Assembly (NCBI RefSeq): GCF_029105185.1
Contig: NZ_JAFMZK010000001.1
Span: 434,001 to 498,000 of the forward strand
DNA: 64,000 bases
Source of the DNA: Aliiroseovarius sp. Z3
GTDB lineage: Bacteria > Pseudomonadota > Alphaproteobacteria > Rhodobacterales > Rhodobacteraceae
Reading direction: 5' to 3'
In this document: one piece after another, positions 56,005-59,849 of the stretch
How positions within the stretch are numbered: position 1 is the first letter of the stretch
How the letters are laid out: each line of letters opens with the position of its first letter
The notes under the pieces: generated by a model
What the model was told of the DNA's origin: nothing
Seen by the model: only the letters and a program-made list of their open reading frames with translations
Databases searched by the model: none
Made by a program: the position numbers and the translations under genes

Positions 56005-57390
56005 ATGAGTGAGAGAATCCTGATAGCGGATGACCTTGCGACCAATCGCATCGTTTTGAAGGTCAAACTGACCGTCGCCTGTTACGACGTGATACAGAGC
56101 GACCGCTGCGACGAGGTCGCTGCCCTGGCCCGTGACGCTCAGCCTGATCTTATCATTCTTGGACGCGGGCGCACCGATTGTAGCCTGTCCACCTGTCGCG
56201 AACTCAAGGCAGACCCCGTACTTGGCTTGATTCCGATCATCATGGTTTCGGACCAGGACGACCAACATGCTCGGCTGGAGGCGATCATGGCCGGAGCGGA
56301 TGATGTGTTTTCCAAACCCCTGAACGAAGCCACGCTGATGGCCATGGTACGCAATCTGATCCGGGCGCGCGGGACTGATAACGAGGTTATGCGCCGACGC
56401 GAGTTGTCGCGCGATTTCGGATGCGCCGAAGCCCCCGCTTTGTTCGCGCGTCATGCGCGGGTTGCCTTGATCGCGCCGGATGCCGAAACGGGTGTTTACT
56501 GGCGGATGCACCTTGCGACCGAGATCCGGCACCGCATTGATATCATGACACATTCACAAGCGCTTGAGGATATCGGCACCATCGGCAATGTCCCTGATGC
56601 TTTCATCATCGCCTCGACGCTTGGCGAAACGTCTGATGGCCTGCGACTGGTCAGCGAACTAAGGTCGCGCCAGACAACGCGCCATTCGGTTATCGTCGTG
56701 CAGGATTGCGGCGAAACCCCATCGCCCAGCTCGATGGCCCTTGATCTGGGGGCAAATGCTGTCCTTCGGCCCGGTTTCGATGCGCGTGAGCTGGCATTGC
56801 GCCTGACGCGATTGTTGGCGCGGAAATTCGAAGGCGACGATCTGCGCAAAAGTTTTGATGCCAATCTGGCCTTGGCGTTACGCGACCCGCTGACCGGGCT
56901 GCACAATCGGCGGTTTGCCCAAAGCTATCTGGACCGGCTAGAGCGCGAAGCACAGGTGAAAAACCAACCCTTTGCCATCATGGTGCTGGACCTTGATCGG
57001 TTCAAATCCATCAATGATACGTTCGGCCACCCGGTCGGCGATGAGGTTCTGGTCGAGGTTTCAAACCGGCTGAAGGCAAATTTACGCGATATGGATCTGC
57101 TGGCCCGCTATGGCGGAGAAGAGTTTTTAATCGCCCTGCCCGGTGTCGGTCGAAAACAGGCTCAGGCGATGGCCGAACGGCTCAGACGTGCGGTAGGAGA
57201 TTTCCCGGTCGCCCGCAGCGAATTCACGGACGGCATCAACGTGACACTGTCTATCGGTGTCGCGGTTTCGGGCGACACGCCGAAAAACGCGCGCTCGGCA
57301 CATGAATTGTTGCAGTTCGCTGATCAGGCGCTGTACCGCGCCAAATCAGACGGTCGCAATCAGGTCACTTTCGTATCCGACGCGGCCTGA
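56005..57390 (+). CDS. pleD: PleD-like diguanylate cyclase with degenerate receivers
   Basis: A 461-residue REC-REC-GGDEF protein of PleD layout. REC1 keeps the acidic pair (ADD, 8-10) and Lys104, but the phospho-acceptor position is Gly53 (LIILGRGRTD). REC2 (~151-270) also lacks an obvious acceptor (DAFIIAST). The GGDEF domain has an active RYGGEEF (370-374) and an I-site RDMD (361-364). In Caulobacter PleD is turned on by phosphorylation of REC1. Here control must differ, perhaps through dimerisation by a partner. It is divergent from DUF3572. Confidence 0.88.
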   Translation: MSERILIADDLATNRIVLKVKLTVACYDVIQSDRCDEVAALARDAQPDLIILGRGRTDCSLSTCRELKADPVLGLIPIIMVSDQDDQHARLEAIMAGADDVFSKPLNEATLMAMVRNLIRARGTDNEVMRRRELSRDFGCAEAPALFARHARVALIAPDAETGVYWRMHLATEIRHRIDIMTHSQALEDIGTIGNVPDAFIIASTLGETSDGLRLVSELRSRQTTRHSVIVVQDCGETPSPSSMALDLGANAVLRPGFDARELALRLTRLLARKFEGDDLRKSFDANLALALRDPLTGLHNRRFAQSYLDRLEREAQVKNQPFAIMVLDLDRFKSINDTFGHPVGDEVLVEVSNRLKANLRDMDLLARYGGEEFLIALPGVGRKQAQAMAERLRRAVGDFPVARSEFTDGINVTLSIGVAVSGDTPKNARSAHELLQFADQALYRAKSDGRNQVTFVSDAA

Positions 57391-57439: not shown

Positions 57440-57952
57440 TCAGCGCGCGCGCTTACGCACGGATTTTTCGATCCGGTCCGCAAACTCGTGACGTTCCGAC
57501 ATGCTCATCCGCCCGATCCGTTCAACCAGCACGGTGCGGGCAAGCTCGCCACGTTGGCGCATCCGCTCGGATTGCTGGGACATGTTCGACAACAGTGCCT
57601 CGGGATCGAACGGGTCAGCGCGAAGGGCTGACAGCATGGCTTGAAACTCGCTCTCCAACCGCTTGCGGTTTTCGGCAAAGGATCCGCTGCGATCCCGAAG
57701 AATCTTGCCGATTTCGCGACGATCAGCCCGGTCCAGCGCCCCTGCCAAAGGCGCAAAGCCCAAATCGCGGATCGCACCGCGATTGGGGCCACGGGGATCG
57801 AACCCGTGATCGCGATGACCGCCCAACTTGGCACCGATCACCAGCCCAAGAACCAACAGGTTAAGTGTCAACGACACCACCAACAGAACGCGCATCCATT
57901 TTCGGCGCCCGGTGCCAGACTGGTCGGTAGGTGGTAAAGTGGGTGTGGTCAT
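57440..57952 (-). CDS. Periplasmic heavy-metal-sensor-like protein
   Basis: A 170-residue protein with a short cytosolic N-terminus, one membrane helix (~21-41, MRVLLVVSLTLNLLVLGLVIGA) and a long helical periplasmic part rich in Arg, Glu and Met (MSQQSERMRQRGE, RIGRMSMSERHEF), like CnrX/ZraP-type metal sensors. HRDH and Met clusters could bind metal. It overlaps the anti-sigma candidate by four bases and belongs to the ECF module. Confidence 0.78.
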   Translation of the reverse strand: MTTPTLPPTDQSGTGRRKWMRVLLVVSLTLNLLVLGLVIGAKLGGHRDHGFDPRGPNRGAIRDLGFAPLAGALDRADRREIGKILRDRSGSFAENRKRLESEFQAMLSALRADPFDPEALLSNMSQQSERMRQRGELARTVLVERIGRMSMSERHEFADRIEKSVRKRAR

Positions 57953-58389
57953 CCCTCATCCTCCATGAAAACGTCGGTGCCCAAATAGCTTGGGGCAAAA
58001 TCCTCCAGCACATAGGTTTGCGCGGAGGTGGAATAATCACCACTCAGGACCAATCCGCCAGACATCGCCTCAAGCTGGGCAGGAGAGACAAACCCAATCC
58101 ACACCCCGGCAATTGTCGCGGTCGCCATACCCGCCAGCGCAGGCCACCCGCCCATGCTTGCCCTGAGATCGGCCCAGAACCCGCGCCTTTGGCGCCGGTC
58201 TTTTCCCTGCACAAGCGATTTGTCTTTCAATGAGCTTGGCGAGGCATCCCGTCCAGCTTGTTCGGTTGCGGCATCGTCAAGAATAGCAGCCATCAATGCG
58301 TCAGACGGTGTAGCCGTGTCGTTTCGGGCCGCATTGAAAAACGCTTCCAGCTCGTGATCATCCAGCATGTTTTTGTCAGTCTTTGCCAT
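57949..58389 (-). CDS. Anti-sigma factor candidate
   Basis: A 146-residue protein with a cytosolic N-terminal ~75 residues (LDDHELEAFFNAARNDTATPSDALMAAILDD), one membrane helix (~83-103, GMATATIAGVWIGFVS) and a short periplasmic tail. This is the layout of single-pass anti-sigma factors such as CnrY. It overlaps the ECF gene by 14 bases and the metal-sensor-like gene by four. Direct homology to a named family was not established. Confidence 0.7.
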   Translation of the reverse strand: MAKTDKNMLDDHELEAFFNAARNDTATPSDALMAAILDDAATEQAGRDASPSSLKDKSLVQGKDRRQRRGFWADLRASMGGWPALAGMATATIAGVWIGFVSPAQLEAMSGGLVLSGDYSTSAQTYVLEDFAPSYLGTDVFMEDEG

Positions 58390-58963
58390 ATCCCAACTCC
58401 TCTCGCTGTCCCGCCAGGGCCTGCGCCAGCGCTCTTTTTCCCCGTGCCGTCAGGCTTTCAACCGCCTCGACACTGATATCCATGATCTGCGCAATGTCGG
58501 GGTTGGTCTCCCCTTCGATATGGCGCAGCGTCACGGCGATCCGTTGCCGCTCCGGCAAACTGCTCAGCGCGGCTTGCAGGGCGGCGGCGCGGTCCGCCTG
58601 GATCATCCGATCGACCGCAGCGGGCGTATCGTCTTCCGGTTCCTCAATCGCGTCGATGTCGACAGTGCGCCGCTTGCGCAGCCGGTCCGTACACAGGTTA
58701 GACACAACCCGGAACAGCCATGTCGATACTTTCGCCTCGCCTGTCCGCCAGTCGGGGGCGATCTTCCACAGACGCAGCATCGCCTCTTGCGTCACATCTT
58801 CAGCCTCGGCGCGATCACCGCCCAACAGACGCGCAGCAAACCCCAAGATCCGCGGGGCAAGGCGGCGGGTCAGAAGCTCTGCCGCCACCGGATCACCATT
58901 CCCGTACAAGACGAGAAGCGCGTCATCCGATGCGTCAGCATACGCGTCCAAAGCCATTTCCAT
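58376..58963 (-). CDS. ECF-type RNA polymerase sigma factor
   Basis: A 195-residue sigma factor with only regions 2 and 4. Region 2 runs ~20-95 (RAEAEDVTQEAMLRLWKIAPDW and STWLFRVVSNLCTDRLRKR), and region 4 runs ~135-190 (LPERQRIAVTLRHIEGETNPDIAQIMDISVEAVESLTARGKRAL). It would be held by the adjacent membrane anti-sigma until a periplasmic signal frees it. It is downstream of the EF-hand protein gene, with the hairpin at 59010-59030 between them. Confidence 0.93.
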   Translation of the reverse strand: MEMALDAYADASDDALLVLYGNGDPVAAELLTRRLAPRILGFAARLLGGDRAEAEDVTQEAMLRLWKIAPDWRTGEAKVSTWLFRVVSNLCTDRLRKRRTVDIDAIEEPEDDTPAAVDRMIQADRAAALQAALSSLPERQRIAVTLRHIEGETNPDIAQIMDISVEAVESLTARGKRALAQALAGQREELGYGKD

Positions 58964-59009
58964 TCGTCCTGCCTAGCCCCAATACCCGCAGGTGACAACG
59001 GGCGGGTCC

Positions 59010-59030
59010 GCCCCCGCAACACGCGGGGGC
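59010..59030. terminator. Hairpin between the EF-hand gene and the ECF sigma gene
   Basis: GCCCCCGC / GCGGGGGC form a perfect 8-bp stem with a 5-nt loop 10 bp beyond the EF-hand gene's stop codon. The T-run is on the plus-strand side (CCTTTTTT), so on the minus strand it is a hairpin without a U-tract. It may attenuate or stabilise the transcript rather than end it. Confidence 0.5.
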
Positions 59031-59039
59031 ACACCTTTT

Positions 59040-59654
59040 TTACCCGCCTTGGCGTTTGCCGTGGCCGCCTTTGCCATGCCCGCCTTGGCCATGCCCACGT
59101 TTCCCATGTCCGCGCAAGAAGGCTTCCTTTTGCGCCTCGTCGAACTCGGCCTGCGAAATCGCGTTGTCATCATCGGTGTCGAACCGGTCGATCATGCGAT
59201 CCAGCCGCACCTGATCCGGGGTCATTTCATCAAGGCTCAGGGTGCCATTGCCGTTGCTGTCACGCTTGGCAATCATCTTTTCAACCATCCAGCCCATCTG
59301 TTTTTCCGACAGTGGCTTGGATCGCTTCTGTTGATCACCCGATGCCGCCTGACGCTCGGCCATTTTCGCGCTGCGATGTGCCTGCAGCTCTTCGACGGTA
59401 AGCTCTCCGTTCCCGTCGGTATCGGCCGACGTAAAACGTGCCTGTGCGTTGGCCTGCAGGTCTTCGACGGTGAGCTGGCCATTGGCATCAGCATCCAGAT
59501 CGGCAAACTCCATCTGCATGAACCCGCCGTGTGGGCCATCCATTCCGCGACCGTCTTTCCCACCAAAAGCCATAACCGCGGTCCCGCCAAGCGCCACGGA
59601 GGCACCCAGCACCAAAGCAATTGCGGTTGCAGTCTGTTTTCTTGTCAATGTCAT
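59040..59654 (-). CDS. Exported EF-hand protein with Gly/His-rich tail
   Basis: The ATG at 59654 follows AAGGAA and gives 204 residues. It has a Sec signal (~1-30, ending AVMA). There are four EF-hand loops: DLDADANGQLTVEDL, DTDGNGELTVEEL, DSNGNGTLSLDEM and DTDDDNAISQAEF. The tail repeats GHGKRGHGQGGHGKGGHG, likely a Ni/Cu/Zn-binding site. It is predicted to bind Ca2+ in the periplasm and is the first gene of the ECF module, either its target or its ligand buffer. Confidence 0.88.
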   Translation of the reverse strand: MTLTRKQTATAIALVLGASVALGGTAVMAFGGKDGRGMDGPHGGFMQMEFADLDADANGQLTVEDLQANAQARFTSADTDGNGELTVEELQAHRSAKMAERQAASGDQQKRSKPLSEKQMGWMVEKMIAKRDSNGNGTLSLDEMTPDQVRLDRMIDRFDTDDDNAISQAEFDEAQKEAFLRGHGKRGHGQGGHGKGGHGKRQGG

Positions 59655-59849
59655 GGTATATTCCTTTTCCTTGCCTGTTCTCACCGGGCATTTCTAACCG
59701 GCGACATATCCATTGAACGCTGCTGGGTTGTGTTTCCGTCGCATGTCGGCGAAATAAATCGCGACATCCCGCCGCAAGACCAAATTCGCTGCATGATTTT
59801 CCGTGCGTCATTCCTTAGAATGGGTTGGTGCGCGACAAAGGACGATTGA

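Follow-up and report, generated by a model that had tools for sequence, protein, structure and literature searches.

The locus considered here lies on the minus strand of a 64,000-nt stretch of Aliiroseovarius sp. Z3 DNA (the window, to which coordinates refer unless a locus number is given) and encodes an EF-hand protein, an extracytoplasmic function (ECF) sigma factor, a probable anti-sigma factor and a sensor-like periplasmic protein. Its closest described counterparts are the CnrYXH nickel/cobalt system of Cupriavidus metallidurans and the cabp-sigV gene pair of Caulobacter vibrioides. In the former, two helices of CnrY embrace the sigma factor CnrH (PMC4598750, PMC7406223), and Met123 is a metal ligand of CnrX near the end of its domain (PMC7689651). 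Other described anti-sigma factors carry the zinc-binding anti-sigma (ZAS) motif HxxxCxxC (PMC4598750) or wrap around their sigma factor, as in the EcfG/NepR general stress response (PMC8103513), in which the EcfG consensus promoter is GGAAC-N16-CGTT (PMC7083833). The cabp-sigV pair (CCNA_02838-02837) was described in 2026 (PMC13171946); in that study the cabp promoter was placed by 5' RACE at GGAAA, 13 nt, CGTTCA, sigV overexpression raised and sigV deletion lowered cabp expression, acid and calcium limitation induced both genes, CaBP overexpression raised sigV, and promoter activation without calcium required CaBP. Its authors assigned an independent promoter inside cabp to sigV, and regarded both genes as monocistronic and as part of the SigT regulon. 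This was the only paper on an EF-hand/ECF sigma pair returned by a literature search, the results of which did not include the main ECF re-classification paper.

We consider it probable that the four genes form an ECF sigma module that activates itself and responds to envelope stress of a periplasmic ionic or acid kind, with a two-helix anti-sigma factor resembling CnrY. In order, they encode the exported EF-hand protein (59040–59654, 204 aa), the sigma factor (58376–58963, 195 aa), the probable anti-sigma factor (57949–58389, 146 aa) and the membrane-anchored sensor-like protein (57440–57952, 170 aa), with overlaps of 14 nt between the sigma and anti-sigma genes (58376–58389) and 4 nt between the anti-sigma and sensor genes (57949–57952). 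An earlier note made from the sequence alone had described this order and these overlaps, and the coordinates and the Pfam and NCBIfam matches agree with it. The sigma factor matched Sigma70_r2 (1.9e-18) and Sigma70 r4_2 (6.5e-16) in Pfam and exceeded the curated cut-off of the NCBIfam equivalog NF009176 (PRK12524; 306.6 vs 264 bits). The most similar sigma factor was found in Aliiroseovarius sp. S1339 (89 % identity), and in a search of the Protein Data Bank (PDB) CnrH appeared as a distant homologue at rank 15 (1.5e-6). The signal peptide of the EF-hand protein was recognized by inspection of the translation, and Pfam matches to EF-hand_7 (1e-16) and to four stretches of EF-hand_1 accompany its four calcium-binding loops (DADANGQLTVED, DTDGNGELTVEE, DSNGNGTLSLDE and DTDDDNAISQAE).

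Conservation of the module was assessed in 80 loci and a further 31 (two of which were the window's own), giving 103 loci distinct by sigma sequence, own locus included. All four genes were found in the same order by phmmer in 96 of the 103, an order that the earlier note had proposed to look for in related genomes, and this arrangement is far beyond chance. No EF-hand gene was recognizable upstream in L023, L033, L093 and L094 (L033 also ends downstream of the sigma gene), loci L021 and L038 were interrupted by contig ends, and the third gene of L099 was divergent, still being detected with a hidden Markov model. The NF009176 cut-off was exceeded in 142 of 198 genomes of the same family (one per genus). 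The sigma family was used for the survey of the whole class, because few matches (9 of 289 genomes, five of them outside the family) were obtained when the class was searched with the anti-sigma profile. In this draw a sigma relative was present at E ≤ 1e-20 in 166 of 385 genomes, whilst only five of the 385, all from the same family, passed the NF009176 cut-off. Among 84 loci from other families, taken from the best class-wide matches, a Metal_resist sensor gene was adjacent in 77 and an EF-hand gene was present in 43; flanking sequence was short at two of the seven loci lacking the sensor and at two of the 41 lacking the EF-hand gene. Judged by these sequence comparisons, the module is real and class-wide in the Alphaproteobacteria.

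Promoters were sought by an unbiased count of dyads around the EF-hand gene start in 98 loci. The dyad GGAA-N14-CGTT preceded the EF-hand gene in 76 loci, compared with three in shuffles, and extended to CGACGGAA; the 8-base −35 element was found in 93 loci. The pattern CGACGGAA-N14-CGT[TC] occurred in 78 of the 98 loci at a spacing of exactly 14 nt, and in none or one at every other spacing from 8 to 21 nt. Among the 20 loci with no exact CGTT match, 18 reached 11–12 of 13 bases, mostly with CGTA or CGTG; of the two remaining loci, one has only 109 nt of upstream sequence. In the window an exact site is present at 59742–59716 on the minus strand (−35 GCGACGGAA, 14-nt spacer, −10 CGTT(CA)), and the promoter sequence is identical between the same-genus genome G164 and the Aliiroseovarius sp. 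S1339 locus. A shared ECF-type promoter in front of both the EF-hand and the sigma genes, which the earlier note had proposed as a check, was not found: the site precedes the EF-hand gene instead, and nothing of comparable strength lies before the sigma gene. The commonest dyad in the 3' end of the EF-hand gene and the EF-hand/sigma intergenic region occurred in 31 of 98 loci (eight in shuffles), and others there in 22–27 loci (0–3 in shuffles) may represent EF-hand coding sequence, although lineage-specific promoters would escape such a search. A strict site was present in 20 of the 84 other-family loci, 5' of the EF-hand gene in all 14 that had one and directly upstream of the sigma gene in all six in which no EF-hand gene was found; the position of the site therefore tracks the first gene of the operon.

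The 13-base motif was then scanned over the 198 family genomes, the sigma factor being scored as present at E ≤ 1e-40. A site was found in 137 of 170 genomes with the sigma factor and in five of 28 without it, a contrast of which part is trivial, since the operon has a site of its own. At least two sites were found in 73 of 170 and one of 28 genomes, respectively (p 1.4e-5; the tests ignore relatedness). Sites outnumbered matches to the reversed pattern by 71 to 33 in 21 same-genus genomes and by 84 to 32 in 40 family genomes. That the predicted regulon follows the sigma factor across the family is well supported by these motif counts. Nine site-bearing loci from other families (L120–L128) comprised the module's own operon in four cases (L123, L124, L125 and L127) and coding or uninformative positions in the other five.

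In the genome of Aliiroseovarius sp. Z3 the sequence CGACGGAA-N14-CGTT occurs four times: at this operon, at a second EF-hand gene, at a resistance-nodulation-division (RND) locus and in uvrC. The second EF-hand gene (L374:2872–2393, minus strand), which encodes an exported protein of 159 aa, has its exact site 30 nt upstream; it sits between genes named by inspection as encoding a substrate-binding protein of BMP type and an oxidoreductase. The RND locus (L373:1162–5952, minus strand) comprises a moaB-like gene (named by inspection), an RND adaptor gene and the gene for a 1108-aa RND permease, and the site straddles the stop codon of the moaB-like gene, 111 nt 5' of the RND pair. The adaptor exceeded the TIGR01730 cut-off, and the permease scored below every cut-off listed (213 vs 701 bits for heavy-metal RND; 397 vs 1250 bits for multidrug). 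The uvrC site, seen also in the same-genus loci L132, L135, L136, L137, L141 and L144, was rejected as a target since it lies in conserved coding sequence. A third EF-hand gene of this genome (L375:1603–2214, plus strand) has no site, its best match being 7 of 13 bases.

Genes downstream of 84 sites were clustered and the clusters counted by genera. The recurrent clusters were RND/membrane fusion protein-type adaptors (eight genera), RpoH (seven), EF-hand proteins (four, operon copies included) and cytochrome b561 (four), with a DUF4405-like protein, a small membrane protein and an RcnB-like protein in two genera each; no protease or chaperone gene was among them. In one relative the gene 3' of a site gave the RcnB match, which is just below its cut-off (24.4 vs 25.9 bits) and clusters with a second. 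The small membrane protein (IYWNDPAH..., L329:1054–1428, plus strand), 3' of a site in two genera, had no Pfam or NCBIfam match. A separate survey of rpoH covered 149 genomes and gave 30 loci, of which 24 were readable; in nine of the 24, at least 11 of 12 bases of the site were found at −106 to −124, compared with none in mononucleotide shuffles. This suggests that rpoH is under an envelope sigma factor in several genera. The EF-hand protein itself is, on the evidence of promoter positions, very likely an output of the regulon, because an ECF-type promoter precedes both its gene and the second EF-hand gene of the same genome, and because the motif follows the sigma factor and precedes the second EF-hand gene, RND pumps, cytochrome b561 and rpoH in the family. 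The earlier note had left the protein as either output or ligand buffer, and it is the role as output that these promoters favour.

The Gly/His/Lys-rich tail of the EF-hand protein, which the note had also pointed out, is present in this protein, but no more than 29 of 98 EF-hand proteins, including this one, have at least three His residues among the last 35, and the tail was rejected as a defining metal site because it is lineage-specific. Membership of the lanmodulin family (NF053806) was likewise rejected, the score being 32.1 bits against a cut-off of 135 (36.8 bits for the second EF-hand protein). The EF-hand proteins are acidic, with a median net charge of −8 over the last 170 residues, and the sensors slightly basic (mean +3).

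The 146-aa protein had no match in Pfam or NCBIfam. Predicted helices at residues 11–23 and 30–48 precede a transmembrane (TM) helix at 82–100 and a short periplasmic tail. In its AlphaFold2 model the ten-residue blocks from 11 to 50 had predicted local distance difference test (pLDDT) values of 88, 86, 89 and 72. The TM segment is conserved as GGWPxxAGLATAxxAGxWIG in an alignment of 22 sequences, in which inspection revealed no conserved HxxxCxxC motif of ZAS type; the protein from the window contains no Cys. From its layout and modelled helices it is a probable anti-sigma factor.

The 170-aa protein matched PF13801 (Metal_resist; 1.6e-17, 64.3 bits vs a gathering cut-off of 29.2), as did all 25 members of sensor set A2, and was modelled as a TM helix followed by a helical hook (pLDDT 82.9). 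In a profile search CpxP (2.8e-4) and Spy (5e-4) ranked above NccX and CnrX (0.018–0.46), which are not significant by sequence alone because an unrelated plant protein, 8cra (0.011), ranks higher. Comparison of the model by VIA-align gave Z 8.2 for CpxP (98 residues aligned, 3.0 Å), 6.8 for Spy, 5.8 for CnrX, 5.6 for ZraP and 5.2 for NccX, and 16 of the top 18 rows were one of these five proteins, although Z values below 13 are under the safe range for helical bundles and may reflect a common arrangement. The alignment of 101 sensors contained conserved Arg columns and no conserved His or Cys, the best His column reaching 19 % and the best Cys column 4 %; one conserved Met (149, 96 %) occupies the Leu place of an LTxxQ-like motif. 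Structural alignment placed residues 62–170 on residues 40–148 of CnrX (104 of 109 aligned), with V141 at H119 and R145 at M123, and the same placement was obtained when a family member was aligned, albeit weakly (E 0.25), to NccX. At these two positions the CnrX ligands are absent from the sensor. The other CnrX ligands, H42, H46 and E63, could not be placed reliably. These observations suggest that members of the PF13801 'heavy-metal resistance' family can form part of an ECF switch even when they lack ligands of the CnrX type.

The intercistronic region between the EF-hand and sigma genes (58964–59039, minus strand) contains a strong hairpin with no T-run, with a folding z of −2.12 against dinucleotide shuffles (58964–59045, minus strand); z was below −2 against mononucleotide shuffles in 63 of 96 loci. 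Such a structure could hold the EF-hand mRNA at a level above that of the regulator mRNA. Beyond the other end of the operon, a gene for a PleD-like response regulator/diguanylate cyclase (56005–57390, plus strand) is convergent with it and ends 49 nt from the operon stop; its product scores below the NCBIfam cut-off for PRK09581.

What the module senses can be read in several ways. The earlier note called it metal-sensing and drew a parallel with CnrH-CnrY-CnrX; the parallel held for the set of genes and for the probable fold of the sensor, with a conserved module of sigma factor, protein of anti-sigma layout and sensor, whereas sensing in the CnrX sense did not, given the missing His and Cys columns and the residues V141 and R145. 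A Cnr-like system in which the sensor binds nickel, cobalt, copper or zinc and a His-tailed EF-hand protein buffers the metal would fit the family name of PF13801, the structural likeness to CnrX and NccX, the RND pump in the regulon and the RcnB match. It is nevertheless improbable, since the tail is confined to 29 of 98 proteins and the RND permease of this genome falls far below the heavy-metal model, as it does below the multidrug model; nickel or cobalt sensing by CnrX chemistry in particular is set back by the ligand positions. The higher ranking of CpxP and Spy than of CnrX, by profile as well as by structure, accords with a folding sensor, for which misfolded or aggregating periplasmic protein would be the signal and through which alone calcium or acid would act, and rpoH as a target in relatives points the same way. 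Proteases and chaperones are, however, absent from the recurrent targets, the Z values may express no more than the common arrangement of helical bundles, and CpxP and Spy are soluble, unlike the membrane-anchored protein here; we regard a folding sensor as possible, if on balance unlikely.

The EF-hand protein might alternatively be the input, its apo- or calcium-loaded form binding the sensor and setting its state, so that the module would measure periplasmic calcium. Its gene comes first in the operon at 96 of the 103 loci, the acidic character of the protein would complement a basic sensor with conserved Arg columns, and the effects of CaBP on sigV and on promoter activation without calcium, as reported for Caulobacter (PMC13171946), are of the kind expected. 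At 41 of the 84 other-family loci and four of the 103, however, no EF-hand gene was found, so it can hardly be an obligate part of the sensor, although a gene elsewhere in the genome is possible; we regard this role as unlikely. Lastly, the promoter could belong to another sigma factor (EcfG/SigT of the general stress response, or RpoE), the module being a passenger of that regulon. The −10 CGTT and the GGAA core do resemble EcfG sites, and the Caulobacter authors claim SigT dependence (PMC13171946). The EcfG consensus (PMC7083833), equivalent to GGAA-N17-CGTT, is three bases longer than the promoter found here, and none of the 98 loci had the site at 17 nt, against 78 at 14 nt; sites are, moreover, rare in family genomes that lack the module sigma factor. 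Control by another sigma factor is thus very improbable, and a spacing of 14 nt points to a dedicated sigma factor at the cabp promoter as well.

In the self-activating envelope-stress module that we favour, the 146-aa protein would clamp the sigma factor at rest with its two N-terminal helices, as CnrY clamps CnrH, and the anchored CpxP/Spy/CnrX-like protein would keep the anti-sigma factor sequestering. Envelope disturbance would change the periplasmic helical hook and free the sigma factor to read GCGACGGAA-N14-CGTT promoters, first that of the EF-hand gene, a step for which the sequence support is good. Because that promoter, upstream of the EF-hand gene, heads the sigma factor's own operon, the operon of all four genes would be positively autoregulated, and the EF-hand protein would be its foremost output. 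The remaining predicted targets differ by species: in this genome they are the second EF-hand gene and the RND adaptor-permease pair, and in relatives they are cytochrome b561, DUF4405 and rpoH. A probable function of the EF-hand protein is to buffer Ca2+ in the periplasm, and it may exert feedback on the sensor. By analogy with the reported induction of cabp and sigV, and provided that Caulobacter SigV is the same sigma factor, calcium depletion or acid suggests itself as a first guess at the signal. More speculatively, and in our view unlikely as a whole, the module could be an ancestral alphaproteobacterial system for calcium/acid envelope stress, in which a CpxP-like sensor reads Ca2+ with EF-hand feedback and a CnrY-like anti-sigma factor and a dedicated sigma factor drive rpoH in several genera of Rhodobacteraceae.

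Several results weigh against the self-activating module and its regulon. The anti-sigma role was assigned because the protein adjoins the sigma factor and because of a model of low confidence (mean pLDDT 67.2), and its profile retrieved neither CnrY nor any credible sequence match from the PDB; Foldseek with the sensor model gave no match at E ≤ 0.001, the best being CpxP at 0.77. Neither of these two null results is evidence of a difference. In 40 genomes from outside the family sites did not outnumber matches to the reversed pattern (24 vs 41). Of the four exact sites in the genome of Aliiroseovarius sp. Z3, that in uvrC is a coding coincidence. Genes on the upstream side of the sites also formed clusters, of up to six genera, and conserved gene neighbourhood thus contributes to the recurrence of targets. 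Fifteen of the 24 readable rpoH loci fell below 11 of 12 bases, including the window's own rpoH (20056–19163, minus strand; 85 % identical to the query), which has no site (8 of 12). The hairpin could also separate the EF-hand and regulator transcripts, and the separate promoters and SigT assignment given for Caulobacter (PMC13171946) conflict with a single operon promoter.

Bacterial sensing of periplasmic calcium is poorly known, and the module provides candidates for an anti-sigma factor and a sensor, together with a precise promoter and a list of genes. An RpoH arm, if true, would link periplasmic calcium to cytoplasmic proteostasis. If the Caulobacter system is orthologous, the module would supply the membrane link that was left as a question mark in the 2026 model; a two-helix membrane protein, a PF13801 protein and GCGACGGAAA before cabp, if true in Caulobacter, would unite both systems. 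In the C. vibrioides genome NF009176 has a match at E ≤ 1e-40, below the cut-off, and PF13801 has one at E ≤ 0.01.

Compared with known systems, the locus shares with CnrYXH the co-encoding of an ECF sigma factor, a small membrane protein with a presumed anti-sigma role and, in its model, two cytoplasmic helices, and an anchored helical-hairpin sensor. It differs in that the sensor lacks equivalents of H119 and M123, an EF-hand gene leads the operon and the sigma factor is only a distant homologue of CnrH. CpxP and Spy provide the best profile and structure matches to the sensor domain, but here an N-terminal TM helix tethers the protein to the membrane and its gene accompanies one for an ECF sigma factor. 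With EcfG/NepR it has in common an alphaproteobacterial ECF sigma factor, the CGTT −10 element and, as far as the anti-sigma candidate goes, a presumed place in the class that wraps around its sigma factor (PMC8103513), whereas the spacing and −35 element differ and the anti-sigma candidate, a membrane protein, is paired with a sensor. The likeness to cabp-sigV, in which a periplasmic EF-hand gene is followed by an ECF sigma gene, the promoter core and spacing are the same and EF-hand expression is reported to depend on the sigma factor (PMC13171946), is one of layout and promoter. In that study's account the Caulobacter system has two genes, three EF loops, separate promoters and SigT control, compared with the four genes, candidate anti-sigma factor and sensor, longer −35 element and predicted regulon of the present module. 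The module is of a known kind, comprising ECF sigma factor, membrane anti-sigma factor and sensor, in a variant form marked by a sensor without the CnrX ligands that were tested, a distinctive promoter and EF-hand proteins as its outputs.

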